Shown piece by piece: positions 1,273 through 35,235 of a DNA stretch of 44,477 bases. Source of the DNA: a virus. Positions within the stretch are counted from its first letter, which is position 1; each line of letters opens with the position of its first letter. The notes beneath the pieces are model-generated. The model saw only the letters and a list, made by a program, of their open reading frames with translations. It had not been told where the DNA came from and did not search any database. The stretch is from IMG/VR virus record IMGVR_UViG_3300023229_000028, positions 1 to 44,477 of that record. One strand, 5' to 3'. Made by a program: the position numbers and the translations under genes.

Positions 1273-1291
1273 TTAATTATAAAAAGGTTCC
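1273..1291 (-). promoter_or_regulatory. GGAAC-N5-TATAAT promoter (copy 1)
   Basis: Minus-strand core GGAAC-CTTTT-TATAATTAA, directly upstream of the gene starting at 1262. One of 18 copies with an invariant 5-base spacer. Confidence 0.8.
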
Positions 1292-1298
1292 TATAGAC

Positions 1299-1331
1299 AA
1301 AAAGGGAGAGGTAATTTACCCCTCCCTTTAT
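1299..1331. terminator. Rho-independent terminator
   Basis: Hairpin with about 12 paired bases (AAAGGGAG...CTCCCTTT, one mismatch) flanked by A and T runs, so it can act both ways. It most likely ends the transcript of the minus-strand gene at 1353-1700, just before the next promoter. Confidence 0.8.
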
Positions 1332-1352
1332 TATCGCCCACGATGTTAGTTA

Positions 1353-1700
1353 TTAGTCTCTTACTGCTTGAAGACTCTCAGTGAAGTAATCATACTCCTG
1401 CTGGATGCCGAATTCCCAAGTACCTGGCTCTAGAGCGATCGCATCGTGTCGGTTCTCCATAACGCATCGGATTTGAGTGGGTTCTGAATTCTGCATAAAC
1501 AGAGTACCTCCGCCATTTTGGAAGAAGTTTACTCCGGCCTTATTATCAACGACGTGATGATTTCCAGTTGTTTCAGAATCAGCAACGATGACAAATGCCC
1601 CATCGACTTTTTTTGCGGAAGTACCTTCAGGGATATCGGATGGGAATACCATGCATTCGCCGTGAAGGATTACTTTTGTTTTTGTGTTGGTTTCGTTCAT
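1353..1700 (-). CDS. Small conserved protein with GNHHVV motif, partner of the DUF6745-like gene
   Basis: 115 aa, counted from the ATG at 1700. The frame is open 50 codons further up, but that part lies over the neighbour's 3' end and intergenic sequence, while the ATG at 1700 has a TATAAT-like box immediately upstream. Visible motifs are ETTGNHHVV around residue 41, LEPGTWEFGIQQEYD near 90-104 and a C-terminal VRD. From memory, bacterial and phage proteins with this T-G-H-H-H...REYD layout are often adjacent to DUF6745 proteins, as here. The biochemical role is unknown; the paired motif suggests a beta-sandwich or cupin-like fold, which is inference. Confidence 0.75.
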   Translation of the reverse strand: MNETNTKTKVILHGECMVFPSDIPEGTSAKKVDGAFVIVADSETTGNHHVVDNKAGVNFFQNGGGTLFMQNSEPTQIRCVMENRHDAIALEPGTWEFGIQQEYDYFTESLQAVRD

Positions 1701-1758
1701 ATAATTATTATATATTAGTTGTTGTGGGTTTCTACTGTTATTTAGGTAAAGTTTTAAA

Positions 1759-2730
1759 TTAGGCAATGGCTGCAATCGTAAAGTCCTTACCACCGAACCT
1801 CTCTTTAATTGCGTCTTTAAGGTTAGCACATTTAGGTGATACAGCTTCAACGTGCCATACGCCAGTTGACATATTTTTCATCTTGAGGTGTGGAGCGTAT
1901 GCGACCCCCTCAAAGATTTCATTCATATCCCAGAGTTCGTACTCTGAATTAGTCCACCACTCGTGATCATATTTCTCAAAAGTATCGAGTTGTTTGCCAA
2001 ATTCTCCGAGCATTCGCTCAATTCCAAATTTACGGACAAATTCAGTCCGCTCATCTGCATTTTTAATATCGTGGTATCGCTTTAGATCTAGCTCCATTGC
2101 GGGAGTTTCAACAAGCCAATCACTACAGCTAATACCATTCATAGCGTAAATTTTAAATTCCCCTGCACCTGCGTAGGCCAATGCGGGTCCACCATCACGG
2201 TGCAATTCGTTATCCTCGTTCAGATGAATGTAGAGAGGCTTTTCAGTCACAATACAAACCTCATCGAGTGGGTAGATTAGACCAAGCTTAGAAGTATCTT
2301 TCCAGATCTCGAACTTATCGAGAAGATCTTGAGGGATATCAATTCCAAGCTCACTGATCATATAATCGTAAAAAGACAAAATCGAAGAGAAAAATGAACC
2401 ATCTTGATATGGGTATACCGGCCGATCGATCTCAATATCCTTTTCACCCTTTGCGCACTTAAAGTAGTTAGCAATACGATCTTTGATTTCGTCGATTGGG
2501 ACGCCTGTAACTGCATAGTTACAACCAACCCAAGCCTCAATAGGGTTATCTACAATGAGGACCGGAGTCTTCTTCATTTTCAGAATATTCTCCTGATATG
2601 CGTGAATGATATTCACGGTTTCATCAGGATCCAGTCGGGAGGTATCTACACCGATTTTACGCCACTTTGCAACGTAGTCATCCATTGCAGCTTCTTGCTC
2701 TGGTGTTAGTTTGTCGATTTTATCAGCCAT
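1759..2730 (-). CDS. DUF6745-like protein, 323 aa
   Basis: The central segment (about residues 165-205) contains PLYIHLNEDNELHRDGGPA followed by KIYAMNGI. This matches the H-x-D/E-G-P-A...W/YxxHG/NG pattern I associate with DUF6745 proteins. The N-terminal 60 residues look like an alpha-helical region (LTPEQEAAMDDYVAKWRKI). No catalytic function is known. Transcription is from promoter core 2775-2793 through a roughly 40-base CA-rich leader with no Shine-Dalgarno sequence. The partner gene at 1353-1700 follows after a short gap. The family call rests on motif memory, not a search. Confidence 0.7.
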   Translation of the reverse strand: MADKIDKLTPEQEAAMDDYVAKWRKIGVDTSRLDPDETVNIIHAYQENILKMKKTPVLIVDNPIEAWVGCNYAVTGVPIDEIKDRIANYFKCAKGEKDIEIDRPVYPYQDGSFFSSILSFYDYMISELGIDIPQDLLDKFEIWKDTSKLGLIYPLDEVCIVTEKPLYIHLNEDNELHRDGGPALAYAGAGEFKIYAMNGISCSDWLVETPAMELDLKRYHDIKNADERTEFVRKFGIERMLGEFGKQLDTFEKYDHEWWTNSEYELWDMNEIFEGVAYAPHLKMKNMSTGVWHVEAVSPKCANLKDAIKERFGGKDFTIAAIA

Positions 2731-2774
2731 GTGTTTTAGTTGTTTGTTTTAGTTGTGTTGGTTGTTTGTATACT

Positions 2775-2793
2775 ATTATTATAATGAGGTTCC
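2775..2793 (-). promoter_or_regulatory. GGAAC-N5-TATAAT promoter (copy 2)
   Basis: Minus-strand core GGAAC-CTCAT-TATAATAAT, followed by a leader of about 40 bases made of CAA/AAC repeats before the ATG at 2730. The leader holds no Shine-Dalgarno site. Confidence 0.8.
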
Positions 2794-2834
2794 TATTATT
2801 GTTCCTCTAATAAATTTTTTATTTAAATTAAGTT

Positions 2835-3116
2835 TCAATTTAATTGACGTACTTTTCTTTCAGCTCGCTTCGCTCGTTTAGCTTTTGCTGCTGCGATATT
2901 CGCAATATCAGATGGCGTCTTCTCACGGTCTTTATTATGCCGTTTATCATAAGCTGATGCCTTAAACAATCGACTATTAAAGATATCTCCAGAATTATCG
3001 TGTGAAACATATGACAATGCGGATGCCGCGAGCATTAATTTACTCATTGAGGCTGGCGCCTTCTCGGAAATTTTGATTATAGGTTTCGAATCGTTTGTAT
3101 AAATGTGATCGTTCAT
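2835..3116 (-). CDS. Hypothetical protein with basic C-terminal tail, 93 aa
   Basis: The C-terminal third is a Lys/Arg/Ala-rich helix (AAAKAKRAKRAERKVRQ), possibly nucleic-acid binding. The N-terminal part is unremarkable and soluble. Own promoter at 3138-3156. No family recognised. Confidence 0.7.
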   Translation of the reverse strand: MNDHIYTNDSKPIIKISEKAPASMSKLMLAASALSYVSHDNSGDIFNSRLFKASAYDKRHNKDREKTPSDIANIAAAKAKRAKRAERKVRQLN

Positions 3117-3137
3117 GTGGTATCTAATGTCTGTACA

Positions 3138-3156
3138 ATTATTATAAGGGGGTTCC
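3138..3156 (-). promoter_or_regulatory. GGAAC-N5-TATAAT promoter (copy 3)
   Basis: Minus-strand core GGAAC-CCCCT-TATAATAAT upstream of the ATG at 3116. Confidence 0.8.
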
Positions 3157-3158
3157 TA

Positions 3159-3380: not shown

Positions 3381-3382
3381 CG

Positions 3383-4290: not shown

Positions 4291-4494
4291 TCACGGGCAA
4301 ACCGATCGCGATTCTGAAGCCATACTGGCTTCTCTCATAATGCGGCGAAGAGCCGGCCCCCAGCCCAACAGCCCATTCCAATGGCAGTATTCGTCAAACA
4401 TTTCTCCAGCGTCCATATTATTAATATCTTCAATAGTATGCCCACGAGACATTAGAGCGTCTTCGAGCTCTTCTGATAACTTAAATTCTTTCAT
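4291..4494 (-). CDS. Hypothetical protein, 67 aa
   Basis: Acidic helical protein (FKLSEELEDALMSRGHTIEDINNMDAGEMFDEY). The central segment is WNGLLGWGPALRRI. No family recognised. Transcribed from promoter core 4520-4538. Confidence 0.75.
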   Translation of the reverse strand: MKEFKLSEELEDALMSRGHTIEDINNMDAGEMFDEYCHWNGLLGWGPALRRIMREASMASESRSVCP

Positions 4495-4519: not shown

Positions 4520-4538
4520 ATTATTATATGTTAGTTCC
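4520..4538 (-). promoter_or_regulatory. GGAAC-N5-TATAAT promoter (copy 4)
   Basis: Minus-strand core GGAAC-TAACA-TATAATAAT upstream of the ATG at 4494. Confidence 0.8.
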
Positions 4539-4988: not shown

Positions 4989-5007
4989 ATTATTGTACAG
5001 AAGTTCC
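4989..5007 (-). promoter_or_regulatory. GGAAC-N5-TATAAT promoter (copy 5)
   Basis: Minus-strand core GGAAC-TTCTG-TACAATAAT. The hexamer ends 6 bases before the ATG at 4985, predicting a leaderless transcript. Confidence 0.75.
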
Positions 5008-6209: not shown

Positions 6210-6902
6210 CTAGTTTGCTACCTTTAATTTTTTCCGTACAATTGTATTAATTCCCGGATATTGCTGTCGAATTTGTGGGATGATAACACGGCGTAGCCAG
6301 TTTCTACGAATAGTAATATCCTCATTAGATGGGTCTTCTACGATATGATCGTTTAAGCATTTATCTCTAACATAATTATTAATATCTGACCTTTCAGTAT
6401 CTGCTACAAAAGGTCTAATTACTGTATAATTACCTCGATTAGTTCTTGTAGGGATAGGCATGAAGTCTGCATGGCCATTAAGACAATTCATTAGATAGGA
6501 CTCTACACAATCATCTAGGTGGTGACATACTACAATCTCTTCATCTCTCGTGTCTTCGAGAGCTGTACTAAATAGCTTATATCTAACATTTCTAAAATCT
6601 GATTCAGATTTAAGCTTGACCTTATTAGAATATCTCATTACTGCATACTCAATAAGAGTCACCTCTTCTCCAGCCTCCCGCCGCCATCGACGTTCTGTAT
6701 TTAAATAGTGTACATATTCAATGAAGGCCGTCTCTGCCTCTTGACTGTATGGGGTACCGTGATTTACATGAATGAGTTTTAACTTTCTATACCCAGAGCA
6801 TAAAAAATGAGATAGAGCGACGCTATCTTTACCCATTGACACTGCAACATTAAGCGTTGCCCATTTGGGTGTTTCAATATTGTTTTTATTAAACCTAATC
6901 AT
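6210..6902 (-). CDS. tilS: TilS-like PP-loop ATPase (tRNA-Ile lysidine synthase family)
   Basis: Residues 18-27 contain VAVSMGKDS, the PP-loop. HVNHG follows at 45-49. Further on come CHHLDDCVES, IRPF and VEDPSNED...RRNWLRRVIIPQI, which match the conserved blocks of the TilS N-terminal domain in order. Cellular TilS adenylates C34 of tRNA-Ile(CAU) and attaches lysine. At 230 aa this protein has only the catalytic ATPase domain and lacks the C-terminal substrate-binding domains. K replaces the usual second Gly of SGGxDS. No tRNA-Ile(CAU) is visible here. The ATG is preceded by GAGGAA and by promoter copy 6. Confidence 0.8.
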   Translation of the reverse strand: MIRFNKNNIETPKWATLNVAVSMGKDSVALSHFLCSGYRKLKLIHVNHGTPYSQEAETAFIEYVHYLNTERRWRREAGEEVTLIEYAVMRYSNKVKLKSESDFRNVRYKLFSTALEDTRDEEIVVCHHLDDCVESYLMNCLNGHADFMPIPTRTNRGNYTVIRPFVADTERSDINNYVRDKCLNDHIVEDPSNEDITIRRNWLRRVIIPQIRQQYPGINTIVRKKLKVAN

Positions 6903-6915
6903 CGTTCCTCATATA

Positions 6916-6934
6916 TTAATTATAAAGAAGTTCC
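6916..6934 (-). promoter_or_regulatory. GGAAC-N5-TATAAT promoter (copy 6)
   Basis: Minus-strand core GGAAC-TTCTT-TATAATTAA upstream of the TilS-like gene, overlapping the 3' end of the gene at 6920. Confidence 0.8.
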
Positions 6935-7450: not shown

Positions 7451-7696
7451 TTATGTATTGGTTTTGTTTGTTTGTTTAAAATTTTCTTGCATTCTCTCAG
7501 ATTCTTCGAAGTAATTCCAACCGGTGCATGTTTCTACCGCTGCGGTCCATCTCTCTAGATTTTTACCCCAAGGTCGGGTAGCTTTATGATCTGCCCCCAT
7601 AAAGACATATGCCTCCTTGAGCAGCTCCATTAGTTCGGAACTAAGCAGCGAAGGGGAAATTAAATCTTCTACAATTCTAGGCGATGTAAGCTTCAT
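7451..7696 (-). CDS. Hypothetical protein, 81 aa
   Basis: I chose the internal ATG at 7696 (MKLTSPRIVEDL). The upstream in-frame ATG at 7720 lies inside promoter copy 7, and the TATAAT ends only 6 bases before 7696, which implies a leaderless mRNA. It contains WGKNLERWTAAVETCTGWNYF. No family recognised. Confidence 0.7.
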   Translation of the reverse strand: MKLTSPRIVEDLISPSLLSSELMELLKEAYVFMGADHKATRPWGKNLERWTAAVETCTGWNYFEESERMQENFKQTNKTNT

Positions 7697-7699: not shown

Positions 7700-7718
7700 A
7701 TAATTATACCCTAGTTCC
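7700..7718 (-). promoter_or_regulatory. GGAAC-N5-TATAAT promoter (copy 7)
   Basis: Minus-strand core GGAAC-TAGGG-TATAATTAT; hexamer end to ATG (7696) is 6 bases. Confidence 0.8.
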
Positions 7719-10614: not shown

Positions 10615-11529
10615 TTACATACTATGCTTCCAGGAAGCTGTCGTCCCTCTGCCGTATTTAACTAATTTGCCTTGCTGGCATAAATTTCTCAAGAGGTAAT
10701 TAGCCCTAGTAGCATCTATATTAAGATCACTACATACTCGAGATACATCAAGTCCTGGAGGCTCATTAATTTGCATAATTTCTACTAATTCCTGATCTTT
10801 TTTCGCGCTCTTAGATTTAGACTTAGCTGTAGTTGAATCAGCAGCGACAACTGTCTTAGAAAAATCAAATCCCTTAGCACCGAAATATGTCGCGCACTCA
10901 TACAGTGACCCGTAACGGTTTTTGCTAGTCGAAATAGTTCTGATTGTCATATCATCATCATCAACTCCGATCGTCATATTAATATCTACTGCATGAGGGA
11001 TAGCAGTGCTCCCCTTATAACCACCCCCTTTAGTAACGTGTAGTACGACGGTCAGCGCTGTTTTTGTTCTCTTCGCAGCTGATACGAGTTTGCTAATAGC
11101 TTCTTCCTGACCTGACATATTAAGCCTCTTACCATTCATAGTAAGACATGGGAAGGAATCATAAACTAAGAAGTCAACTTCTTCCATATGACTGATAATA
11201 ATATCTACATTATTTTCATTTGCAATTAAAACGTCACTTACCCCAAGTCTCTTACTCGAGTATGCAATCATTTCTTCTGACTCTTCACCAGTAACGTATG
11301 CTGCAGAATATCCGGAATCTTCTAGAGACTGACAGATCTGAAGATACAATGTGGTTTTACCACTTCCGGGTGGAGCAGCAATGGTTGAAACTGAACCTGG
11401 CAGTATACCTTCACCGCCATATACCTGATCAATTTGAGAAATGCCAGTCTTCATTCTAGAAAAATATTCTTCTGGAATAATAACATCAGAAACTTTTCTC
11501 AATGAGGTCTTTGTGTGTGCAATATTCAT
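10615..11529 (-). CDS. RadA/Sms-like RecA-fold ATPase with C-terminal winged helix, 304 aa
   Basis: Walker A APPGSGKTT is at residues 52-60, GEES at 81-84, Walker B FLVYDS at 120-125, and the RadA-type block VTKGGGYKGS with PHAVD at 165-182. The order and the VTKxGxxxG signature point to the RadA/Sms branch of RecA-like ATPases rather than UvsX. The usual N-terminal zinc finger and C-terminal Lon-like domain are missing. Instead residues about 245-304 look like a winged helix (LDVSRVCSDLNIDATRANYLLRNL). A role in recombination or branch migration is likely but inferred. The leader is CA-rich, from promoter copy 8. Confidence 0.75.
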   Translation of the reverse strand: MNIAHTKTSLRKVSDVIIPEEYFSRMKTGISQIDQVYGGEGILPGSVSTIAAPPGSGKTTLYLQICQSLEDSGYSAAYVTGEESEEMIAYSSKRLGVSDVLIANENNVDIIISHMEEVDFLVYDSFPCLTMNGKRLNMSGQEEAISKLVSAAKRTKTALTVVLHVTKGGGYKGSTAIPHAVDINMTIGVDDDDMTIRTISTSKNRYGSLYECATYFGAKGFDFSKTVVAADSTTAKSKSKSAKKDQELVEIMQINEPPGLDVSRVCSDLNIDATRANYLLRNLCQQGKLVKYGRGTTASWKHSM

Positions 11530-11569: not shown

Positions 11570-11588
11570 ATAATTATACGGGGGTTCC
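11570..11588 (-). promoter_or_regulatory. GGAAC-N5-TATAAT promoter (copy 8)
   Basis: Minus-strand core GGAAC-CCCCG-TATAATTAT, followed by a CA-rich leader (GAACAAACAACC...CCAAACAAAC) before the ATG at 11529. Confidence 0.8.
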
Positions 11589-12029: not shown

Positions 12030-12050
12030 ACAGTCTGTATTATCTAAATG

Positions 12051-12174
12051 GGTGGTGCTGGGAGTCGAACCCAGTAAGATACCTATCTCTTAATGTGAGA
12101 CTCGAACTCACACACTCAACCAGAGTCACAACCAGGATTTGAACCCAGCTTCGGCTTCCGTGTCGCCCACCACC
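12051..12174 (-). tRNA. tRNA-like composite element with three 17-nt arms
   Basis: The 124-nt minus-strand element is closed by a perfect 7-bp acceptor-like stem (GGTGGTG/CACCACC). Inside are three 5-bp, 7-base-loop hairpins spaced exactly 37 nt apart, at 12132-12148 (loop TTCAAAT), 12095-12111 (loop TTCGAGT, identical to the T-arm of tRNA-Arg) and 12058-12074 (loop TTCGACT). Small hairpins lie between them. Removing the middle 37 nt would give a class II tRNA-Leu(CAA)-like shape of 87 nt. Position 8 is not T and no CCA is encoded. It may be a tRNA with an extra arm or a fusion relic of two tRNAs. Confidence 0.5.
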
Positions 12175-12207: not shown

Positions 12208-12226
12208 ATAATTATATTGAAGTTCC
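12208..12226 (-). promoter_or_regulatory. GGAAC-N5-TATAAT promoter (copy 9)
   Basis: Minus-strand core GGAAC-TTCAA-TATAATTAT; would transcribe the tRNA-like element and 11619-12029. It lies back to back with the late promoter of the endolysin. Confidence 0.8.
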
Positions 12227-13084: not shown

Positions 13085-13930
13085 TTACGCCCCTTGAAGT
13101 ATCTCCAGTGCCTGAGTAGACATTGTGGATGCGGTTAGGGTTCGGATCAGTTTAGCTGGAGTAAATTTCTGGTGAGATTCAAATTCCGTTACGGCGTTTA
13201 GTGCATCCCATTTCGTTTTGCCTTCATTCGCTCTGCCGTTGTTGCCGAACTTCGAGATTAGACATGACCTCTTACTGACCCTCTTTGTAGACTCATCGTC
13301 TTGTTTGGGCATTAATTTATGAGATAATAGTACCATTTTATCCTTTGTAAATGGCTGATCTCTTAGCCTATTGGCAATTGTCTGGAAGTTCTTTACAGTT
13401 TCAATATTCGATTGAATATTAGTAACAAACATTTCCACTCGCTCATCAAAATTGTAATTATGACGTAGTGAGGTATTTCGAGTATTACCGGTCGATTCCT
13501 TATGCTTATATCTAACTAGATGTAGAGCATTATCACACGAAATCCGCATGGTTGAGGGGATGACCATATTTGCAGATTTTCCAGAATTATCAATAATAGT
13601 ATAAAAAATTCCCTCGATCGGATCATCAGTTAATCCGAAGTTGCCGATCTTTGATTGGATCAATACCTTCTTACCTGATGAGCTCGTAGTATATCCAATA
13701 TGCTCAATATCACCCGCCGCTTTAGATGCAACTTTGATTGTCTCAATCATCTCATTCATTTGAATGGGGCGATATGAATTGGTGCAAGACCCTAAATGCT
13801 CTCGACTATCAGTTCGCATAAGCGAAAAAAGATTGGGAATCGGTTCGTTTCTAGAATCAAATAAAGGCTCTTTAATAACCTCAAATTGCGGTACCTCGTC
13901 TAATGATTTAATGTTTGTTAGGAATCCCAT
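13085..13930 (-). CDS. DUF932 family protein, 281 aa
   Basis: The sequence follows the phage/plasmid-like DUF932 pattern: an early LGSCTNSYRPIQMNEM segment, ISCDNALHLVRYKH near residues 129-142, and a late KTKWDALNAVTEFESH block typical of the family. The product is cytoplasmic with no membrane segments. DUF932 proteins occur on phages and plasmids and have no established activity. It has its own promoter (copy 10) and ends at the shared terminator, making a monocistronic unit. Confidence 0.8.
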   Translation of the reverse strand: MGFLTNIKSLDEVPQFEVIKEPLFDSRNEPIPNLFSLMRTDSREHLGSCTNSYRPIQMNEMIETIKVASKAAGDIEHIGYTTSSSGKKVLIQSKIGNFGLTDDPIEGIFYTIIDNSGKSANMVIPSTMRISCDNALHLVRYKHKESTGNTRNTSLRHNYNFDERVEMFVTNIQSNIETVKNFQTIANRLRDQPFTKDKMVLLSHKLMPKQDDESTKRVSKRSCLISKFGNNGRANEGKTKWDALNAVTEFESHQKFTPAKLIRTLTASTMSTQALEILQGA

Positions 13931-13961: not shown

Positions 13962-13980
13962 CTAATTATACTAGGGTTCC
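13962..13980 (-). promoter_or_regulatory. GGAAC-N5-TATAAT promoter (copy 10)
   Basis: Minus-strand core GGAAC-CCTAG-TATAATTAG, 32 bases before the DUF932 ATG. Confidence 0.8.
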
Positions 13981-14963: not shown

Positions 14964-15617
14964 TTAATTTAACTCCTCTAATAGTTGTAAAATTAATTCT
15001 TTCGGCTTCTCGAGCCCGAGCTCATCAAGCTTTTCTTTGAAGAAATCGTCCCATTCAGATTTTTTCAGACTGATATTAATGTACTTAGACTCTTGCTGAA
15101 TTTTAGGTTGTGATACTCTATGAAAGTTTAAAGCGTCAGCTTTTGGCTCCAGTGCGGCTATTGCACTGTGTGCTTCTTCGCTCAGGGATGTTAGAGCCCA
15201 TCCCTTACCTGGGAATCGATCTACAATTAACCCAAACATTTCCGCAGCTTTTTTAAAATTTTTATTATGATACTGAACGTCATTACAATCCGGCAATTCT
15301 AAAATATTATTGTATAGATGCGCAAGCTCATGAAGCAGCGTTTCATATATATCCTGAGCTGGACGGTTCATATACTCAGCGCATATATTTATTTCATGAT
15401 AATATTCCTTATCCTCATCAGCTGCAGAAGAGTCTGACACCCATTTTTCCGCCCAAAAATGACCTAGATTATTTCGTCGAGCGCTCGTCTGAATAGTAAT
15501 AAATACATTAGCGTTTTTTACTCTATCATCATCACAAAACCTATCGAGAAAGAATTTCTTTGCCCTATTAAGCTCGTCAATGGCTACTTGATATTTTTTA
15601 TTAATCTGGTCTTCCAT
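14964..15617 (-). CDS. SprT-like metallopeptidase, 217 aa
   Basis: HELAHLYN at residues 96-103, followed by VQYHNKNFKKAAEMFGL around 114-130. The HExxH plus a His about 17 residues later within a HxxxF/WKxxA context is the SprT/Spartan layout. Spartan proteases remove DNA-protein crosslinks in cells; bacterial and phage SprT-like proteins are mostly untested. The C-terminus lacks the usual zinc ribbon and is helical (FKEKLDELGLEKPKELILQLL). Promoter copy 11 ends at the ATG, so the mRNA is likely leaderless. Confidence 0.75.
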   Translation of the reverse strand: MEDQINKKYQVAIDELNRAKKFFLDRFCDDDRVKNANVFITIQTSARRNNLGHFWAEKWVSDSSAADEDKEYYHEINICAEYMNRPAQDIYETLLHELAHLYNNILELPDCNDVQYHNKNFKKAAEMFGLIVDRFPGKGWALTSLSEEAHSAIAALEPKADALNFHRVSQPKIQQESKYINISLKKSEWDDFFKEKLDELGLEKPKELILQLLEELN

Positions 15618-15620: not shown

Positions 15621-15639
15621 ATAATTATAAATAGGTTCC
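15621..15639 (-). promoter_or_regulatory. GGAAC-N5-TATAAT promoter (copy 11)
   Basis: Minus-strand core GGAAC-CTATT-TATAATTAT; hexamer end to ATG (15617) is 6 bases. Identical core to copy 12. Confidence 0.85.
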
Positions 15640-15644: not shown

Positions 15645-15920
15645 TTATACTTCAATAGGGGCTGACTTCACCTCAACAGCACACTCATTTGTTATCATTT
15701 CATGATACTCAGGATGTAATATAGCTTCAAGCTCCGATGTGGCGACTTTAATAGCCCCCAGCTTAATGGCTACACGAAGTATCTTGTCTAAATCTCCCGC
15801 GGCTCTCGCGTTTTTAATAGATAACTCAGCGGTAGCAATTCGTTTATTCCATACTGTGAGTAAGTTTTCTAGCTGCATTGTAGCAGCAGCTCGATGCAGA
15901 TCTTTATCTAATACTATCAT
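15645..15920 (-). CDS. Hypothetical helical protein, 91 aa
   Basis: Ala-rich helices (LLTVWNKRIATAELSIKNARAAG), no Cys cluster or membrane segment. No family recognised. Its start overlaps the upstream gene by 4 bases. Confidence 0.65.
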   Translation of the reverse strand: MIVLDKDLHRAAATMQLENLLTVWNKRIATAELSIKNARAAGDLDKILRVAIKLGAIKVATSELEAILHPEYHEMITNECAVEVKSAPIEV

Positions 15921-16228
15921 ACTAATTTATAACCAAGACTATCCGCAGTCATATTCCACAATTTAGATCGTTGCTCTGGAGTGTTTGCGTGGTCCTCGCT
16001 AAAATGATTATACATCTGATCCATCATCTCGCATCGGAATTCTTTATATGCATCGACGTATGGAGTCTCACTATCTAAAAATATATCTAACATCCACCCA
16101 GTCATGCATCGCCTCTCCCCCTCTCTAAATTTGCCCTTTACTAATTTTTCTGGCTGCATCTTTGGAAGTTCGCTGGGACGCACGAAGTGATTGGAAAGTG
16201 GAACGTCTGTCTTATGTGTACTCTTCAT
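15917..16228 (-). CDS. Hypothetical protein, 103 aa
   Basis: Contains KGKFREGERRCMTGWMLDIF and a polar helical C-terminus. No family recognised. First gene behind promoter copy 12, with the ATG 6-8 bases from the TATAAT box. Confidence 0.7.
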   Translation of the reverse strand: MKSTHKTDVPLSNHFVRPSELPKMQPEKLVKGKFREGERRCMTGWMLDIFLDSETPYVDAYKEFRCEMMDQMYNHFSEDHANTPEQRSKLWNMTADSLGYKLV

Positions 16229-16233: not shown

Positions 16234-16252
16234 ATAATTATAAATAGGTTCC
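16234..16252 (-). promoter_or_regulatory. GGAAC-N5-TATAAT promoter (copy 12)
   Basis: Minus-strand core GGAAC-CTATT-TATAATTAT; same core as copy 11, about 610 bases away. Confidence 0.85.
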
Positions 16253-16258: not shown

Positions 16259-16933
16259 TTAATTAAGAAAACTTCTAAATGTTAGACTAATACGCCAATC
16301 GCAGGGCCTATCATGTTTCGGAATTCTATGGAAGTAATCGTCCTGAAACCCTACAGGCATTACAAATAAAGAGCCTTCTTCTAATAAAATTTTCTGATCG
16401 TCTGGTATATTTCCTTTGGTTGGTATCATACCAGTGTCGTTACAAATTGTACATTTAAAATTATGGGGGGTGTTATCAAGAACCGATGCCTTTTCTACTC
16501 CAGTTCCGCAACATCCTGAACATTCAGATTTTTGGGGCTTAACCCATATTTCTCTCTCCGCTCCAAATGAAATTACAGCAATTGGCTCGTCTGGATCCAT
16601 GCCATCAAAGTCATCTGCATGATACCCTAGATGCTGTTTATCTGTATCATATTTGTTTAAGAAGCAACCGTTAAAATTAGAGCCTATATCGTAATTAAGA
16701 AGGGACATTATAGAGCCTATAAAAGGCTCCATATTTTGGGAAGTATATTGCTCAGCTCCACCAAATGCATTACCGTAAGAATATTCAGTCTTAGAATTGG
16801 ACATAAAGTATTCATGCCGAGCAGCTCTTTTTGTTATCCAGTCAAGATTTAATAGCTCTGCTGTTATCGCTGGTATAGTTACAGATGGTATATATTCTTT
16901 ATAATAAGTAATACCTTTATACAGCTCTTTCAT
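16259..16933 (-). CDS. alkB: AlkB-like 2OG-Fe(II) dioxygenase with inserted zinc knuckle, 224 aa
   Basis: The core matches AlkB: NGCFLNKYDTDKQHLGYHADD gives H105-x-D107, His 202 (FHRIPK) is the second His, and R214/R220 (WRISLTFR) bind 2-oxoglutarate. AlkB proteins repair alkylated bases by oxidative demethylation. Unusual is an insertion at residues 136-170 with CSGCCGTG and CTICNDTG, a pair of DnaJ-type CxxCxxxG knuckles that probably bind zinc and lie between the two halves of the catalytic barrel. It has its own promoter (copy 13), with the ATG almost on the predicted start site. Likely role: DNA or RNA repair, or demethylation of phage nucleic acid. Confidence 0.8.
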   Translation of the reverse strand: MKELYKGITYYKEYIPSVTIPAITAELLNLDWITKRAARHEYFMSNSKTEYSYGNAFGGAEQYTSQNMEPFIGSIMSLLNYDIGSNFNGCFLNKYDTDKQHLGYHADDFDGMDPDEPIAVISFGAEREIWVKPQKSECSGCCGTGVEKASVLDNTPHNFKCTICNDTGMIPTKGNIPDDQKILLEEGSLFVMPVGFQDDYFHRIPKHDRPCDWRISLTFRSFLN

Positions 16934-16936: not shown

Positions 16937-16955
16937 CTAATATTATTATAGTTCC
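16937..16955 (-). promoter_or_regulatory. GGAAC-type promoter (copy 13, shifted box)
   Basis: Minus-strand GGAAC-TATAA-TAATATTAG. With the standard 5-base spacer the hexamer is TAATAT; a TATAAT directly abuts GGAAC. The ATG (16933) follows within 4-12 bases. Confidence 0.65.
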
Positions 16956-16965: not shown

Positions 16966-18189
16966 CTATATTAATTCAGAGATAATGTTCCCCTTACTTA
17001 TTTTTATCGGTCGGAGATCTGGAGTCATTAACTCCTTTGTTGAATCTATACCAGCAAGATGAAACATTGTCGCAAATAAATCCTCTGGAGATACTGGACT
17101 CTCCTCCACTTCGTTAGATATGGAGTCTGTAGTACCGTAAACCATCCCATTATTAATACCACCGCCGCCGATAATAGTAGAAAAGTTTCTAGGCCAGTGA
17201 TCGCGACCTGCCGTCTTATTAATCTTCGGAGTACGGCCAAATTCACTAGTTACAATTACCATCGTCTCATCTAAAATACCTCGCGCTGCAAGATCGGTGA
17301 AGAGTGCAGAGAGAGCTTTATCTAGATCAGGTGCCTTCGCATCGAAACTGTTTTTTATCTTGTCATGATTGTCCCAACCGCCATAATTTACCTTAACAAT
17401 TCGTACCCCCGCCTCTACAAGTCGTCGAGAAATCAAAAGCCTTTGCCCTGGCTGAGTTTTCCCATACATATCCTTCATCGTTTCTGATTCCTTCGATATA
17501 TCAAATGCCTGCATTGCTGCCTCAGAAGACATTAAATCAAATGCTTGATCATAAAATTTATCCATCGCAATTACATTATCGGATTTTATTTCTCTCTTAA
17601 ATTTAGAATCCACGAGCTCTAGTAAATCCCTTTTTCTGTTTGATACTCCATTCTTTAAATCTCTAACCTTGAAGTCTTTTGCAGCTGGGTCAGCCCCAAG
17701 GCTAAAAGAGCCAAACTTAGCTGAGAGAAAACCCGTGCTCGCAAATTCGTTTTGCTCTACTGGGACTGAAACATAAGCAGGCAGAGAATTTCTAAATCCG
17801 AGTTCGTGAGAGACTATAGATCCTACAGATGGATATTTAATGGCGGGGCTGGGCTTATAGCCTGTAAACATGTACTCAGTACCCCTCTCGTGCGCGGCCT
17901 GACCATGAGTCATGCTGTTAATCACAGAAAATTTGTCAGTCTCTTTCGCAAGTAGGGGGAAGCGATCTGAAAACAATAAACCGTCTGTCTTAGTCTTAAT
18001 AGCTTCATACGGGCCTCTAAATTCAGCGTCCGCAAACGGTTTAGGGTTCCAGGTCTCTTGAGATGATATACCCCCGTCCAAATATATATAAATTATATTC
18101 TTAGCTTTTACGGCTTTACCATATTGCGCATTTAAAATTGTAGGGAATGTTAATCCGCCCATTATAGATAAAAAACTTCGCTTATTCAT
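16966..18189 (-). CDS. DUF1501 (sulfatase-like) exported protein, 407 aa
   Basis: N-terminal signal MNKRSFLSIMGGLTFPTILNA resembles a Tat-type signal (KR instead of RR). The body has IYLDGG at 35-40, HGQAAHERG at 95-103, GWDNH at 271-275, TSEFGRTP at 314-321 and GRDHWP at 328-333, which are the hallmark blocks of DUF1501. The family has an alkaline-phosphatase/sulfatase-like core and is abundant in Planctomycetes, Verrucomicrobia and some Bacteroidetes, usually outside phages. Length is near the bacterial norm and the frame is intact. It lies inside a phage operon, downstream of 18199-18654. It may act on host envelope sulfated or phosphorylated glycans; this is inference. Confidence 0.9.
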   Translation of the reverse strand: MNKRSFLSIMGGLTFPTILNAQYGKAVKAKNIIYIYLDGGISSQETWNPKPFADAEFRGPYEAIKTKTDGLLFSDRFPLLAKETDKFSVINSMTHGQAAHERGTEYMFTGYKPSPAIKYPSVGSIVSHELGFRNSLPAYVSVPVEQNEFASTGFLSAKFGSFSLGADPAAKDFKVRDLKNGVSNRKRDLLELVDSKFKREIKSDNVIAMDKFYDQAFDLMSSEAAMQAFDISKESETMKDMYGKTQPGQRLLISRRLVEAGVRIVKVNYGGWDNHDKIKNSFDAKAPDLDKALSALFTDLAARGILDETMVIVTSEFGRTPKINKTAGRDHWPRNFSTIIGGGGINNGMVYGTTDSISNEVEESPVSPEDLFATMFHLAGIDSTKELMTPDLRPIKISKGNIISELI

Positions 18190-18654: not shown

Positions 18655-18893
18655 AACTCTATACCTCTACTATCTGTTATTCTAACATTATCTTCACCAT
18701 TATACCAGCAATAGGCCGACGCTATGTTTATAGCATCCGTAAAATTATTAATAGCATCTACTCGCTTCCAGCCATGAACGCCATTAACATAAATTAATAA
18801 TGGGTAATTATAATCTATATTACAGGAGCACGGGGAGGTATTATTAGATTTTTTTTTATTTTTTATATTCTCAAAATCTGTGAACTGGGACAA
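18651..18893 (-). CDS. Hypothetical protein, 80 aa
   Basis: Basic N-terminus (NIKNKKKSNNTSPC) followed by a compact alpha/beta stretch (YPLLIYVNGVHGWKRVDAINNF). No family recognised. Overlaps the lipoprotein gene by 23 bases. Confidence 0.6.
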   Translation of the reverse strand: MSQFTDFENIKNKKKSNNTSPCSCNIDYNYPLLIYVNGVHGWKRVDAINNFTDAINIASAYCWYNGEDNVRITDSRGIEL

Positions 18894-19104
18894 CTATATA
18901 TATATTTGGATCTGCTCCGTTATATCTATTTCTATGAGACTCCATTTCTACATCAGCACGACGAGTAACTTCTGTCCAATCGTCCATAGTATTATTATTA
19001 TGAACGCAGCTTACTATGCAAGGGGATAGAGGTAGAGTTAATAATAATAAAAACCTAAGCTTGTTAATGTTTTTTTTGATATTATATATTGTATTGTTTT
19101 CCAT
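18871..19104 (-). CDS. Small lipoprotein, 77 aa
   Basis: Basic n-region (KKNINKLR), hydrophobic core (FLLLLTLPLSP) and lipobox IVSC near residue 33, so the mature chain would begin at Cys. A short phage lipoprotein embedded in an overlapping gene could be an outer-membrane spanin (Rz1-like), but the mature part is not Pro-rich and no inner-membrane partner is clear. Alternatives are superinfection exclusion or an envelope modifier. Confidence 0.65.
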   Translation of the reverse strand: MENNTIYNIKKNINKLRFLLLLTLPLSPCIVSCVHNNNTMDDWTEVTRRADVEMESHRNRYNGADPNIYIVVPVHRF

Positions 19105-19137
19105 TTGATTATTTATATTAGATGCTATCGGAGAGGT

Positions 19138-19924: not shown

Positions 19925-20170
19925 TTAAATTAAATTTCCAAAGAGATCTACTTTTAGTGTATCGTCTCTCCAGGACTCCTTAGATACATTCTCAGAAAAG
20001 CAAACCGGGCAGCAGTCCCCGCTAGGGGACATGTAATCTCTAGTCGGGGTTTCCCATTCATATCCACATGTTATACCATCCTCGACATCTTGGCACTCAA
20101 ATTTATGAATACCTGGGTATCTTTTTTTTATATCTCTAGTCGCGATTGTTAATATATCTTTGTTTTCCAT
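19925..20170 (-). CDS. Putative zinc-ribbon protein, 81 aa
   Basis: Cys at FECQDVEDGITCGYEW and DCCPVCFSENV form a C...C...CxxC arrangement typical of a split zinc ribbon. It begins with MENKDILTIATRDIKKRYPG. No family recognised. Confidence 0.65.
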   Translation of the reverse strand: MENKDILTIATRDIKKRYPGIHKFECQDVEDGITCGYEWETPTRDYMSPSGDCCPVCFSENVSKESWRDDTLKVDLFGNLI

Positions 20171-20175
20171 TTGTA

Positions 20176-20490
20176 TTATCCTCCAGACTTAAGGTTAGAT
20201 AGGTATTCTTCTTCAGTCATATCTCCCATATTATCAACTAGGGTTGAGCATTTAATACCAGCTAATGTGGGGTATTTATAAGATTGCATACACCGTATAC
20301 AATATGTATGCTGCCAAAAGCCACATTAGTCTAAAACCCAATCATGACCCTCATTTACACTTTTACAGAACCAAATATTTAAACTCTCGATAACATCATC
20401 TACCTTTTCTGAATCCGTGTCCGACTCAAAAATGATATCGTAATATTTATCTATAAGATTTTTATAAATTTCTAAACCCTCGTTATTCAT
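20176..20490 (-). pseudogene. Zinc-ribbon-like protein interrupted by in-frame TAA
   Basis: From the ATG at 20490 the frame runs 54 codons to GHDWVLD, hits TAA at 20326-20328, then stays open in the same frame for 49 more codons (CGFWQHTYCIRCMQSYKYP...TEEEYLSNLKSGG). The zinc-ligand-like residues (C...H...C..C) lie across and after the stop. A Tyr codon (TAT/TAC) changed to TAA explains it. Upstream is promoter copy 14, with its box just before the ATG. Either a recent nonsense mutation, a sequencing error, or readthrough. Confidence 0.6.
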
Positions 20491-20494
20491 ATAT

Positions 20495-20513
20495 TATATT
20501 GTAATCAAGTTCC
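20495..20513 (-). promoter_or_regulatory. GGAAC-N5-TATAAT promoter (copy 14)
   Basis: Minus-strand core GGAAC-TTGAT-TACAATATA; hexamer end 7 bases before the ATG at 20490. It overlaps the 3' end of the gene at 20505. Confidence 0.7.
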
Positions 20514-20690
20514 AAACTTGATGAATTGCTTTTTTGTTTTTTGAATTTGTTTAATTGCTTGAGTATCAGTAAGCCCATCTGCAACTAGTATTGCAGTGAT
20601 AGTTTTTATTTTTGTGTAAGGCTTATCATTGTATAAAAAAACATTTTCACCTGATATAGTAACATATTGAAGATTAATAAAATCAATCAT
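20505..20690 (-). CDS. Hypothetical protein, 61 aa
   Basis: Small alpha/beta protein (YVTISGENVFLYNDKPYTKIKT). The C-terminal helix KQIQKTKKQFIKF is basic. No family recognised. Confidence 0.55.
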   Translation of the reverse strand: MIDFINLQYVTISGENVFLYNDKPYTKIKTITAILVADGLTDTQAIKQIQKTKKQFIKFGT

Positions 20691-20740
20691 AGGGGGTTAT
20701 AGAATAATACCTTTATGTATAATATAAAAATTCACTTATA

Positions 20741-20938
20741 TTAGTTTAGATTAAATTGTATTATATTAGATGGGGTAGCTATTTGCATCTCCTCAATAGC
20801 TTTTAAAATATTAATAATATCGGGGATATCTATAGTATCACCGCTAAGAAAGTTAATTAGCTCTAATTGGTGGTCCTTATTTAGTGTTTTTGTATACTCA
20901 AATAAGACTTTCGCTAATTCTACTGATAGGGTAGTCAT
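20741..20938 (-). CDS. Hypothetical helical protein, 65 aa
   Basis: Mostly helical (VELAKVLFEYTKTLNKDHQLELINFL). No family recognised. Starts 3 bases after the stop of 20942-21346, so likely the same transcript. Confidence 0.6.
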   Translation of the reverse strand: MTTLSVELAKVLFEYTKTLNKDHQLELINFLSGDTIDIPDIINILKAIEEMQIATPSNIIQFNLN

Positions 20939-20941: not shown

Positions 20942-21346
20942 TTAATTACCGCTCCAATAATCATCTTCATTAGGAAACATAAATAAAAATACATCTTCAA
21001 AATCGGGCGGGCCATTGGTAGCCAATCGGTCGGATACAATATCTAAATTTTCGATTATTTCTTTTAATCCATTATAGCCAGATTCAGCAAGAATATTACT
21101 AGCTACCAGCTTAAGCTCGAAAGCATTAGATTTAATTTCTACTTTTGATATCTCTTCAGCTATTCTCGTACATATATATTCAAGAATTTTTTTATATATA
21201 CTTGCATTTGCAGGTGATAATACTCGTAGCAGATAAAGAGATATCGACGAAGACTTACTCTGCTGTACATCATCTATTAATTCAAATAGTGCTACCACTT
21301 TCGATTTTCCGAACAACTGATTGATTTCTTGTAATAAATTTTCCAT
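20942..21346 (-). CDS. Hypothetical helical protein, 134 aa
   Basis: All-helical, acidic C-terminus (FEDVFLFMFPNEDDYW). No family recognised. First gene behind promoter copy 15. Confidence 0.65.
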   Translation of the reverse strand: MENLLQEINQLFGKSKVVALFELIDDVQQSKSSSISLYLLRVLSPANASIYKKILEYICTRIAEEISKVEIKSNAFELKLVASNILAESGYNGLKEIIENLDIVSDRLATNGPPDFEDVFLFMFPNEDDYWSGN

Positions 21347-21376: not shown

Positions 21377-21395
21377 TAAATTATATCTTAGTTCC
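21377..21395 (-). promoter_or_regulatory. GGAAC-N5-TATAAT promoter (copy 15)
   Basis: Minus-strand core GGAAC-TAAGA-TATAATTTA, overlapping the stop codon of the nuclease gene. Confidence 0.75.
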
Positions 21396-22341: not shown

Positions 22342-22689
22342 CTAATTATTAACTATTGTCATCTCTTCAATCGCCGCTGTCATAATAGCAATGAGATCAT
22401 ATTTATCATGAAACGCTCCAACTAAGCACATGGAGAGTGTTTCAATACTCATTTGAGCAAATTGAGTAATATCAGCAGGCTTGGATTGTCGCCTGAGACC
22501 AAAAGATCCCCGCTCAGCCCTTTTAATAATACGATTAACGAGAGCTTGATTAATTGTAGGTAGTTTACTAGCTAATGTAGTATCTTTAACCTTAATATGT
22601 TCAGCAGTACTTTCAATATTCTTAATTGCCGTAGCAACTCCTTTAAGCTGCTCAGCAGCTTCTGATACTTTATTTCTCTTTCTTTTCAT
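22342..22689 (-). CDS. Hypothetical protein, 115 aa
   Basis: Basic N-terminus (MKRKRNKVSEAAEQLKG) followed by helices. No family recognised. Behind promoter copy 16. Confidence 0.65.
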   Translation of the reverse strand: MKRKRNKVSEAAEQLKGVATAIKNIESTAEHIKVKDTTLASKLPTINQALVNRIIKRAERGSFGLRRQSKPADITQFAQMSIETLSMCLVGAFHDKYDLIAIMTAAIEEMTIVNN

Positions 22690-22707: not shown

Positions 22708-22726
22708 ATTATTATACCAGGTTTCC
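22708..22726 (-). promoter_or_regulatory. GGAAA variant promoter (copy 16)
   Basis: Minus-strand core GGAAA-CCTGG-TATAATAAT, with the last base of the box changed from C to A, upstream of the ATG at 22689. Confidence 0.65.
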
Positions 22727-25488: not shown

Positions 25489-25496
25489 TATAAATA
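25489..25496 (+). promoter_or_regulatory. Late promoter with exact T4 consensus
   Basis: Plus-strand TATAAATA, 5 bases before the ATG at 25502; the only copy identical to the T4 late box. Confidence 0.8.
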
Positions 25497-25501: not shown

Positions 25502-25879
25502 ATGGAATTTACATTCAACTCATTAAATCTTATACTCCCTGAGCCAGACTCTCTCATCGCGCAGGCATCTACCCATGTACTATTTATTAGCGCTGGTGAT
25601 ATCGATGGGAGGAATATTAAGGGAGTATCGTTTAATGCTGTTGAGGATTCGGAGCTGTCAGGAGATATGATTACGTTGAGTGCCACTCAAGGTATTAAAT
25701 TTAGTGTAGATGCAGTATACAACACAACCGAAATGGGTATAATATTAGATGATAATAGCGTTACTTTATTTACTGCAACTACCGGATTCCAGGAGACAAA
25801 ATCTCAAAACCTCTCAAGCAATTCCACTAATCATAGCTTTCCAGAGCTTCGTCGATTAGTTAGACAGGGCATGCTATAA
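25502..25879 (+). CDS. Hypothetical late protein, 125 aa
   Basis: Beta-rich, no Cys, with LRRLVRQG at the end. Isolated plus-strand gene between two minus-strand genes; its 3' end overlaps the terminase gene tail by 6 bases. The exact late box argues for a virion or assembly protein. No family recognised. Confidence 0.7.
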   Translation: MEFTFNSLNLILPEPDSLIAQASTHVLFISAGDIDGRNIKGVSFNAVEDSELSGDMITLSATQGIKFSVDAVYNTTEMGIILDDNSVTLFTATTGFQETKSQNLSSNSTNHSFPELRRLVRQGML

Positions 25880-32060: not shown

Positions 32061-32062
32061 GT

Positions 32063-32746: not shown

Positions 32747-32752
32747 AAATAT

Positions 32753-32759: not shown

Positions 32760-32814
32760 TCAATAACAGTGTATTACGGTTGAGGTTGCTACTAATAAGA
32801 AATATCATTATTTA

Positions 32815-33072: not shown

Positions 33073-33076
33073 TATC

Positions 33077-33332
33077 TTAGGATTTAAATATATCAGGAGC
33101 TTCAGAAGTATCTGACATCTCTCTTACAGCCTGCTTATATAACTCAATCTGTCTTCGATCTGCGATTTCGTCTGCATCATTATTTTTTTTTAGTTTCTAC
33201 TGCCTCTATAAAACATCTTAGGTGAGAAGGTCTTTCGGAATAATTAGCCCAAACAGGATTTCCGCAATAAGTGCACGGGGGGCGTGGGAATGCAGAATTA
33301 AACCGTATTCTAAAATTCTTTAGTAATTTCAT
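33077..33332 (-). pseudogene. Zinc-finger gene with -1 frame change at an A9 run
   Basis: Frame 0 (33180-33332) encodes 50 aa with CTYCGNPVW and SHLRCF (zinc-finger-like), ending ETKKK then TAA. The A9 run (33183-33191) sits right before that stop. In the -1 frame the sequence continues without a stop for 35 codons (NNDADEIADRRQIELYKQAVREM) to 33077-33079. A-AAA-AAA followed by a stop is a classic -1 slippery arrangement, so programmed frameshifting giving about 84 aa is possible; homopolymer indel is the alternative. Confidence 0.6.
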
Positions 33333-33339
33333 TTATAAA

Positions 33340-33358
33340 ATAATTATACAGTGGTTCC
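33340..33358 (-). promoter_or_regulatory. GGAAC-N5-TATAAT promoter (copy 17)
   Basis: Minus-strand core GGAAC-CACTG-TATAATTAT, 10 bases upstream of the ATG at 33332; drives the frameshifted zinc-finger gene. Confidence 0.8.
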
Positions 33359-33369
33359 GTATATGTTAG

Positions 33370-34347
33370 TTAATTGTTATTAATATACCAACTTACAGTA
33401 TTTTCAATACTCTTATTAAATTTAGTGACTCTTTTCCATCCTAATTCACGAGAAATTTTATTTGCATTAATTGCATATCTTTTATCGTGACCGGGCCTAT
33501 CTGCAATATACTCAATAATACTCGTGCATGGTTTTGCGGTTTGTAAAGATACCTCAAACATAACTCTATTAGCTATCGATAGATTTGTACATTCACATTT
33601 ACCCCCTATATTATATGTTGACCCAGAAACACCTCCTTCAAGCACTCGGATTAAACCATCGCAGTGATCTGTAACATATAGCCAATCTCTTATTTGGAGA
33701 CCGTTTCCATATAAAGGTAAATTTTTACCAGCAATAGCATTTAATATTAACTTAGGTATTAACTTCTCTCTATGTTGACGGGGCCCGAAATTATTTGAGC
33801 AATTGGTAACAATTGCATCTATGCCATAAGTTCTTGACCAAGATTTTACTAGATGATCCGCAGCCGCCTTAGTAGCAGCATATGGTGAGGATGGTCTATA
33901 CGGTGATAACTCTGTAAACGGGGATTTATTTAAATCTAAATCCCCATATACTTCATCAGTACTGACGTGAATAAGTCTAACACTCCTACCGGTAGTTTGC
34001 TTTAATTCTCTTATGGATTCTAGTATATTATATGTGCCTATAATATTTGAATCTACAAAAGGTTTAGGTGATGCAATTGAATTATCTACATGTGACTCGG
34101 CTGCTAGGTGAATGATACTATCAATGCCCTTATCATGTAGCAATTCTCTTAATAGTGGCCTCTCAGATATATCACCGACAATGAGAGAGACGTTTGATAG
34201 CCTACTACACATATTCTCAGCAAACTTAGAGTTGCTAGCATACCCCATCTTGTCTAAGATAATTATTTCGTAATTAGAGTCTGCTAATATTTGAACTAAT
34301 GCAGATCCGATAAAACCGGCGCCGCCCGTTACTAATATTTTTTTCAT
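33370..34347 (-). CDS. rfbB: dTDP-glucose 4,6-dehydratase, 325 aa
   Basis: Extended SDR enzyme: NAD-binding GGAGFIG (8-14), catalytic STDEVYG (Thr 130, Asp 131, Glu 132), YAATK (Tyr 156, Lys 160), and the family block GPRQHREKLIP. Converts dTDP-glucose to dTDP-4-keto-6-deoxyglucose, the first committed step to rhamnose and other deoxysugars. No other dTDP-sugar enzyme is in the window, so it may feed a host or phage glycan pathway. Overlaps the upstream gene by 4 bases. Confidence 0.93.
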   Translation of the reverse strand: MKKILVTGGAGFIGSALVQILADSNYEIIILDKMGYASNSKFAENMCSRLSNVSLIVGDISERPLLRELLHDKGIDSIIHLAAESHVDNSIASPKPFVDSNIIGTYNILESIRELKQTTGRSVRLIHVSTDEVYGDLDLNKSPFTELSPYRPSSPYAATKAAADHLVKSWSRTYGIDAIVTNCSNNFGPRQHREKLIPKLILNAIAGKNLPLYGNGLQIRDWLYVTDHCDGLIRVLEGGVSGSTYNIGGKCECTNLSIANRVMFEVSLQTAKPCTSIIEYIADRPGHDKRYAINANKISRELGWKRVTKFNKSIENTVSWYINNN

Positions 34348-34613
34348 AGACTATCTGACTCTATTGGTGTGTTTATAGCTATAAAATTTAGCAGTAGCTC
34401 CCTATCAGTTATTCTAATATCCTTATGAGGTACCCTCGCAACTTTATTAGATTTATGATCTTGATAACGCTGCCTATTGATACAGTTAGATACAGACATG
34501 GTGATGGCTGTATCGCCATAATTATCCTCACCATTTATATCTAATGTAGGCCACGGCTCGTAGAATTTTAAGAATTTAGAATCTCTTTGATCTAATAATG
34601 CTTTTATATTCAT
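34344..34613 (-). CDS. Hypothetical protein, 89 aa
   Basis: Small soluble protein (FLKFYEPWPTLDINGEDNYG). No family recognised. Coupled by TAATG to the Hsp20 gene upstream and by 4 bases to rfbB. Confidence 0.65.
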   Translation of the reverse strand: MNIKALLDQRDSKFLKFYEPWPTLDINGEDNYGDTAITMSVSNCINRQRYQDHKSNKVARVPHKDIRITDRELLLNFIAINTPIESDSL

Positions 34614-35197
34614 TAAAACTTATGAACTTTTTTATCAGTAGATGGCGAGATTGCCTTAGGTATTTCTATAAATAGTACTCCGTTATTAAGGGTCATACAA
34701 AGATCGTCAAGATTAAACTCGGGAGATACAAAGAAGCTTGAAGTTAATTTCTGTTGCGGTATCTTACTTTTTGCAGTGTGATGTTTTATATTAAACGAAG
34801 AGCTGCAGTTTCGAGTAGCGGATATATCTAAAATACCTGTAGACTTTGTAGTATTTACATTAATCGATGAGCGGATAACCCCAGGTAGATCAACACTAAT
34901 AATGAGGTCTTTACTGTCAGTGTAATATGACCTAGATCTAATAGTAAACGTTTCCTGGGACTTTGGTTTAGAGCCGTCGGTTAGGTCTCCATTAAAGTGG
35001 TTGGGCTGGGCAGATTGACAATCTTCACCAGGGGGTGATTTACGCTCTCGACGATTCGGACCGGCTGTAGTGGTCACTACAGTCCATAAGCCGGTATTAT
35101 GCAGTGATTGACAATCACCAGTGTTTCCTAAGTCGGGGTTAGTAGTGTTGAGCCGTTCAAATTCTTTTAGTATATTTTCGTAGTAATCCGTATTCAT
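34613..35197 (-). CDS. Hsp20-like small heat-shock protein, 194 aa
   Basis: The alpha-crystallin domain spans about residues 85-185, with YYTDSKDLIISVDLPGV, a later TGILDISATR, and MTLNNGVLFIEIPKA as the typical last strands (G-V-L-x-I/V-x-I-P). The N-terminal 80 residues are unstructured and Pro/Asn-rich. Hsp20 genes are known in T4-like cyanophages and other marine phages, where they are proposed to help head assembly. The leader is CA-rich, from promoter copy 18. Confidence 0.88.
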   Translation of the reverse strand: MNTDYYENILKEFERLNTTNPDLGNTGDCQSLHNTGLWTVVTTTAGPNRRERKSPPGEDCQSAQPNHFNGDLTDGSKPKSQETFTIRSRSYYTDSKDLIISVDLPGVIRSSINVNTTKSTGILDISATRNCSSSFNIKHHTAKSKIPQQKLTSSFFVSPEFNLDDLCMTLNNGVLFIEIPKAISPSTDKKVHKF

Positions 35198-35216
35198 ATT
35201 TGTTGTTTGTTACATC

Positions 35217-35235
35217 TATATTATGATGAGGTTCC
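35217..35235 (-). promoter_or_regulatory. GGAAC-N5-CATAAT promoter (copy 18)
   Basis: Minus-strand core GGAAC-CTCAT-CATAATATA, followed by a CA-rich leader (AACAAACAACAAAT) before the Hsp20 ATG. Confidence 0.75.

Follow-up and report, generated by a model that had tools for sequence, protein, structure and literature searches.

The virus record IMGVR_UViG_3300023229_000028 of IMG/VR (44,477 bases, analysed whole and called the window below) raises the question of what is marked by a short sequence, GGAAC followed after five bases by TATAAT, that recurs along one of its strands, and of what could read it. The original prediction listed 18 copies of such a promoter; all 18 were found at the positions given there, and all lie on the minus strand. 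We favour, with a probability of roughly 0.6, the reading that these sites represent a promoter class of a broad uncultured lineage of T4-like water phages, in which a box near -20 would stand in for the -35 element and which would serve a largely leaderless programme of expression.

Over the whole window, exact GGAAC-N5-TATAAT occurs 13 times on the minus strand and never on the plus strand, and exact pairs of the two words at the other spacers from 0 to 20 number only 0-2. When one mismatch is allowed, spacer 5 yields 18 sites on the minus strand and none on the plus strand, and each of the other spacers (0-20) yields 0-7 and 0-2, respectively; with two mismatches, the 47 sites found exceed the 27.6 of shuffled sequence only moderately. 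The one-mismatch set of 18 differs slightly from the 18 listed sites: it contains 16007, a GGATC box that was absent from the earlier list and has no ATG near its +1, and it omits 16937. The motif had been presented as uniform, and 13 of the 18 listed sites are indeed exact, but four carry a single substitution (TACAAT at 4989 and 20495, GGAAA at 22708 and CATAAT at 35217), and 16937 (TAATAT) has two mismatches and nevertheless an ATG at the expected place. Similarly, the full form TATAATnAT fits only 9 of the 18, yet 0.01 copies are expected in shuffled sequence and none of 100 shuffles reached 9. Together with the empty plus strand, this bears out the claim that the fixed 5-base spacer is not a matter of chance.

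The sites were also said to lie just upstream of a gene. This holds for 16 of the 18, where the predicted +1 is followed within 0-41 bases by the start of an open reading frame (ORF) of at least 40 amino acids (aa); it fails for 12208 (12208-12226), which precedes a tRNA-Ser (cga) gene at 12050-12133 (minus), and for 4989, which has an ATG at +1 and no 40-aa ORF in reach. The downstream genes had further been called non-structural, a description to be read against a family search that covered some of them only. An ATG stands exactly at the predicted +1 in five window sites, three of which open an ORF of at least 40 aa: 7700-7718 (ATG 7696; ORF 7451-7696), 15621-15639 (ATG 15617; SprT-like ORF 14964-15617) and 16937-16955 (ATG 16933; ORF 16259-16933, phrog_21963, alkylated DNA repair). 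The other two are 4989-5007 (ATG 4985; frame below 40 aa) and 6916-6934, where the ATG at 6912 opens a five-codon frame and the main ORF, 6210-6902, runs from +11. The remaining sites have leaders of up to 41 bases, several of them A/C-rich. The ATG follows +1 by one base at 20495-20513 (ATG 20490; ORF 20326-20490), by two at 16234-16252 (ATG 16228; ORF 15917-16228) and by four at 33340-33358 (ATG 33332; ORF 33180-33332). At 1273-1291, the predicted +1 is 1269 and the ORF starts at 1262; 2775-2793 (+1 2771) is separated by a 41-base A/C-rich leader from ORF 1759-2730 (DUF6745), and 11570-11588 (+1 11566) by a 37-base leader from the DnaB/ATPase-like ORF 10615-11529. The others are 3138-3156 (+1 3134; ORF 2835-3116), 4520-4538 (+1 4516; ORF 4291-4494), 13962-13980 (+1 13958; DUF932 ORF 13085-13930), 21377-21395 (+1 21373; ORF 20942-21346), the GGAAA variant at 22708-22726 (+1 22704; ORF 22342-22689) and 35217-35235 (+1 35213; ORF 34613-35197).

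A 111,925-base record, G001, has a terminase 100% identical to that of the window; judging from the site positions, the window seems to occupy about 65,365-109,841 of G001 in reverse orientation (window position = 109842 minus G001 position). The tail sheath and terminase of the window match T4-like phages at about 31-34% among the matches listed, and G001 also carries genes for gp55, helicase and UvsX-like and gp32-like proteins; the first 25 kb of the window had no megablast match in the phage collection. G001 is one of the 13 records found by terminase and of the ten phage records used for the group counts below.

The search across the whole genome and related phages that had been proposed with the original prediction was run, and the motif recurred in dozens of IMG/VR contigs with its spacer of 5 kept. 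In the ten phage records, GGAAC-N5-TATAA ranks first among all gapped pairs of 5-mers (gaps 3-25), with 166 copies against 3.5 expected. At least one site with no more than one mismatch is present in 11 of the 13 terminase-found records, nearly all on one strand per record; the two without a site are 5.8 and 11 kb long. A strict leaderless form of the motif was found in 106 stretches of the viral collection and in only two of the genome collection (L147 and L148, one site each). In these 108 stretches (996 kb, selected for at least one site, duplicates kept), spacer 5 has 584 copies and any other spacer from 0 to 20 has 0-13. The 39 records from the strict scan all have exact copies, by selection, and the minor strand holds at most two copies in 36 of them; G034 has 12 and 43. 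A terminase matching phrog_2 is present in 22 of the 39, and the others may be fragments. Exact sites are absent from ten of 12 cultured phages; T4 has one and Acidovorax phage ACP17 two. As far as tested, these distributions point to a phage-specific motif that belongs to a lineage of T4-like phages. No report of the GGAAC-N5-TATAAT motif was found in literature searches of open-licence PubMed Central (PMC) articles, and the class looks undescribed, the position of its box fitting none of the known kinds tested.

The feature that the original prediction missed is the coupling of the promoter to the start codon. Among 88 distinct sites pooled from nine terminase-found records, the first ATG follows TATAAT by exactly 6 bases in 38, the predicted +1 is A in 73, and the bases at -25 to -23 are A-rich; the position of TATAAT relative to +1 was derived from this ATG and the A at +1. 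The larger set of 553 distinct sites has ATG at +1 in 314 and one base earlier in 72 more, and 297 of the 314 stay open for at least 40 aa. Because the scan pattern itself demanded an ATG there, the sites matching it were removed, after which 191 of 430 still had ATG at +1. Motif, spacer, strand, conservation and this ATG are features of the sequence itself, as are the drift of the box and its tie to gene families described below. A corresponding signal appears when all 1,279 ORFs of the ten records are aligned at their ATG: TATAAT peaks at -12 (98, mean 6.0 per position) and TAAATA at -11 (162, mean 7.2 per position). At the -11 and -12 places, respectively, T4, P-SSM7 and phiM9 have none of either word, and Pelagibacter phage HTVC008M has 11 and 1. 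Shine-Dalgarno (SD)-like words precede 0.03-0.14 of the ORFs in the ten records against 0.06-0.08 in shuffles, and 0.31-0.66 in the four controls against 0.17-0.24. In HTVC008M (W04), TAAATA lies at -11 in the 11 genes despite the presence of SD sequences in that phage.

A fixed offset from the ATG and little SD could also be expected of an element acting in the RNA, which would then be no promoter but a place where ribosomes land without SD. This is very improbable: the box is kept at the remaining sites, which have no fixed ATG, while +1 is mostly A overall, the site at 12208 precedes a tRNA, and the TAAATA and TTGA...TATAAT promoter types show the same ATG offset.

TATAAT, at a predicted -12 to -7, is best read as a sigma70 -10 element, in agreement with the original prediction, and GGAAC then occupies -22 to -18. 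In the favoured promoter model, TATAAT would serve a sigma70-type initiation complex as its -10 element, and GGAAC, one helical turn upstream, would substitute for the -35 element; GGAAC would most likely be the binding site of a factor, encoded by the phage or carried in the virion, that recruits the host polymerase. Transcription would begin at the A of the start codon or at a neighbouring base, and many messages would therefore be leaderless. The accessory genes would be driven by these promoters, often with one promoter per gene.

Other known promoter types fit less well. That GGAAC is no ordinary -35 box, as had been argued, is supported by the 553 sites, since TTGA lies at -34 in only 15 of them (0-7 at neighbouring places) and GGAAC mostly replaces it. 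Promoters of extracytoplasmic function (ECF) sigma factors have GGAAC as the -35 element, about 16-17 bases before the -10 element. In the 996 kb, N16 and N17 account for 8 and 2 copies, against the 584 at spacer 5, which does not support this reading; PF08281 (ECF-type sigma region 4) gave no match over the cut-off in 27 records, some of which may be fragments, and six weak ones. Sigma54 promoters combine GG at -24 with GC at -12, the GC lying about 10 bases after the GG. No GC element is present, all 18 window sites having TATAAT or a near form at that place (the sigma54 protein was not searched for). Promoters of the Bacteroidetes type read TTTG...TAnnTTTG. Here TTTG has no spacing peak, and TTGA and TTGAT occur in scattered small counts.

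The MotA box of T4 middle promoters lies near -30. In the 88 pooled sites, -34 to -28 is A/T-rich, and no TGCTT box is conserved there. In agreement with the exclusion of MotA in the original prediction, PF09114 found MotA in T4 (E 3e-63) and in none of eight other records (six motif-bearing, none certified complete), nor in any of 27 records in a search without a positive control. The likeness to T4 middle promoters (MotA/AsiA) lies in a phage-specific box that replaces the -35 element upstream of a sigma70-type -10 element in a T4-like phage. The boxes differ, TGCTTtA in an excerpt of PMC9004378 against GGAAC at -20 here, and many of the present messages would start at the ATG. The same excerpt describes a marine T4-like phage in which, as in cyanobacterial ones, middle promoters could not be identified, perhaps because their divergence is too great for detection (PMC9004378).

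The box itself is not constant between phages. At spacer 5, G041 has 57 GGAAA and 14 GGAAC, and G027 has 23 CGAAC and 11 GGAAC; the other eight of the ten records have 4-25 GGAAC and at most one each of GGAAA and CGAAC, and box variants at other spacers average 0-0.8 per record. A phage-encoded reader would allow such drift. With respect to the suggested phage-specific activator site or new polymerase specificity, the phage-specific part stands as far as tested (106 against 2 stretches); no reader was identified, and phage RNA polymerase was not searched for.

One candidate reader is a sigma factor encoded by the phages themselves. Four motif-bearing records, G014, G024, G038 and G032 (L274, L273, L253 and L254), encode RpoD-like frames of 301-401 aa and have 15, 23, 22 and 19 exact sites, respectively; the proteins of G024 and G038 are identical, and that of G014 was aligned to RpoD. 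The helix that reads the -35 element matches ordinary RpoD, and TTGACA at -35 would therefore be predicted, not GGAAC at -20. Moreover, a Sigma70_r2 search of 18 records matched only the gp55 gene in G001, G021, G033, G034, G041, G043 and G044, of which G033, G034 and G041 are long records. With four records only, two of them sharing one protein, an RpoD-like phage sigma was judged unlikely as a general reader, and we consider it improbable that such a protein reads the promoter. A second gp55-like protein is not supported as reader either, each record with any gp55 match having just one.

The GGAAC class does not stand alone in these phages. A TTGA-N18/19-TATAAT class is seen (61 and 33 copies against about 14 at other spacers), whose TATAAT often lies 5-8 and up to 50 bases before the ATG; in one or more records each, it precedes the gp55, gp32-like, DnaB-like helicase and UvsX-like genes and an 855-858-aa gene taken to be DNA polymerase from a match in T4 (no family search). 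A late class is indicated by TAAATA-N5-ATG, the commonest spacing in three sets of terminase neighbourhoods and the second commonest in the G041-like set; these sets came from four further queries from motif-bearing records, with loci found by terminase and duplicates kept. Likeness to T4 late promoters (TATAAATA, gp55) lies in these TAAATA boxes and in gp55 matches in seven motif-bearing records. The GGAAC class is separate from them, reading TATAAT rather than TATAAATA and serving mostly other gene families. Neither T4 nor P-SSM7 places its late box at the ATG (none at -11), and HTVC008M combines its 11 such genes with SD.

The type of promoter goes with the gene family. Of the 196 families represented in four or more records, 55 have the late type alone, 43 the GGAAC type alone and 9 the TTGA type alone, a single type being assigned when two or more members carry it; 4 are mixed and 85 have none of these. 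The GGAAC type precedes 20 of 24 members of the ATPase family (window ORF 10615-11529) and 16 of 21 of the DUF932 family, and the late type all eight members of the tail-sheath family. In the same phages, gp55-type late promoters, and often TTGA-type ones too, would be set at about the same distance from the ATG. That leaderless messages largely sustain the infection cycle of the lineage, with TTGA/TATAAT, GGAAC(-20)/TATAAT and gp55 late classes all starting at or next to the start codon and the GGAAC class read by a phage factor whose target drifts between phages, seems to us to have an even chance of being right. Part of one study describes leaderless genes of bacterial genomes that carry TANNNT some 12 bp ahead of the start codon (PMC3160421). 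A TA-like box is found equally far from the start codon here; the differences are that the genomes of that study are cellular, and that the phages add the GGAAC box and a parallel late class.

Several observations weigh against the favoured reading. The first ATG lies at least 15 bases after +1 in 73 of the 553 sites, so that leaderless starts are frequent and not universal. SD4 stands at 0.14 in G001 and G021 against 0.07 in shuffles; at twice the shuffled level, weak SD use is therefore possible there. The 171-kb record G033 holds only 8 exact sites, and the box is hardly or not enriched around the terminases of contigs resembling G041, G033 and G027, with 3, 6 and 14 copies, respectively, at spacer 5 and at most 4, 6 and 9 at any other. 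No transcription regulator was named among the 143 ORFs of G041, as judged from the best 25 of 40 Pfam and 25 of 93 PHROGs families. Everything said here of transcription and where it starts, of what reads the box and of early or middle timing is inferred from DNA sequence. Finally, the gene content, with arrays of small variable ORFs and a Tad3 gene nearby in G041, suggests an early class, and a newly made phage factor would therefore not yet exist.

The question of timing leads to the possibility that the host holoenzyme alone uses these sites as immediate-early promoters, host sigma70 or a host factor recognising the -20 box; we regard this as possible, though unlikely. It would suit the early-like arrays of small variable ORFs, each with its promoter, and the different, TTGA-type class carried by several replication genes and gp55. 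A precedent is offered by ACP17 (L181), in which eight GRAA[CT]TGTTY-TATAAT sites lie on one strand at 9.9-29 kb, in the 20 kb read; six of the eight, checked against the annotation, precede small hypothetical genes. These sites resemble the present ones in that small genes are repeatedly preceded, on one strand, by GRAA[CT]-N5-TATAAT; they differ in keeping TTGNNN 18 bases before TATAAT and in a leader with an SD-like sequence (by eye). Such a box can therefore sit within an otherwise ordinary sigma70 promoter. An element used by the host should be carried by host genes as well, and the strict leaderless form is limited to the two genome-collection stretches; against this, genes of the host could well have leaders, and its genome may not have been sequenced. 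The variation of the box from phage to phage also speaks against a host reader, though different hosts could explain it too. As to timing, the small variable genes suggest early expression, and a phage-made reader would suggest middle expression.

Some clues to the host are available. The SD-scarce groups named in part of one survey include Bacteroidota and some Verrucomicrobia (PMC10783764), and the little SD seen here would fit a host from either. The RpoD-like phage sigma has listed matches below 60%, with two further records at 60-80%. A DUF1501 protein of the window (16966-18189, minus; PF07394, E 1e-104) has relatives in G005, G019 and G033 and two in G041; it has no match in the phage collection, and its best plasmid match is 31%, to Singulisphaera.

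The sites make up an additional promoter class, strong and countable, in a T4-like lineage that is common, and the favoured reading predicts transcript 5' ends at AUG. If it is true, these large phages would hold a natural leaderless expression system and a new polymerase contact near -20, and gene starts could be called better in many viral contigs.

The window also has late-type boxes with the same leaderless geometry. A T4-late-type CATAAATA box at 36041-36048 (plus; G001 73800, minus) places the ATG at 36054 on the predicted +1 of ORF 36054-36626, and a second late-type box at 25489-25496 (plus) does so for the ATG at 25502 of ORF 25502-25879, whose family has the late class in 13 of 15 members. 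On the minus strand, a TATAAATA box at 19110-19117 has the ATG at 19104 on its predicted +1 (ORF 18871-19104).

Among other genes, a conserved QueC-like protein (by eye) is encoded at G001 20039-20803 and in relatives, and QueC matches one ORF in the G041 set. The Tad3-family gene of G041, an inhibitor of Thoeris defence, lies at 151481-151810 in a part rich in these promoters. Small conserved families were also noted by eye, one of 83 aa and one of 88 aa.

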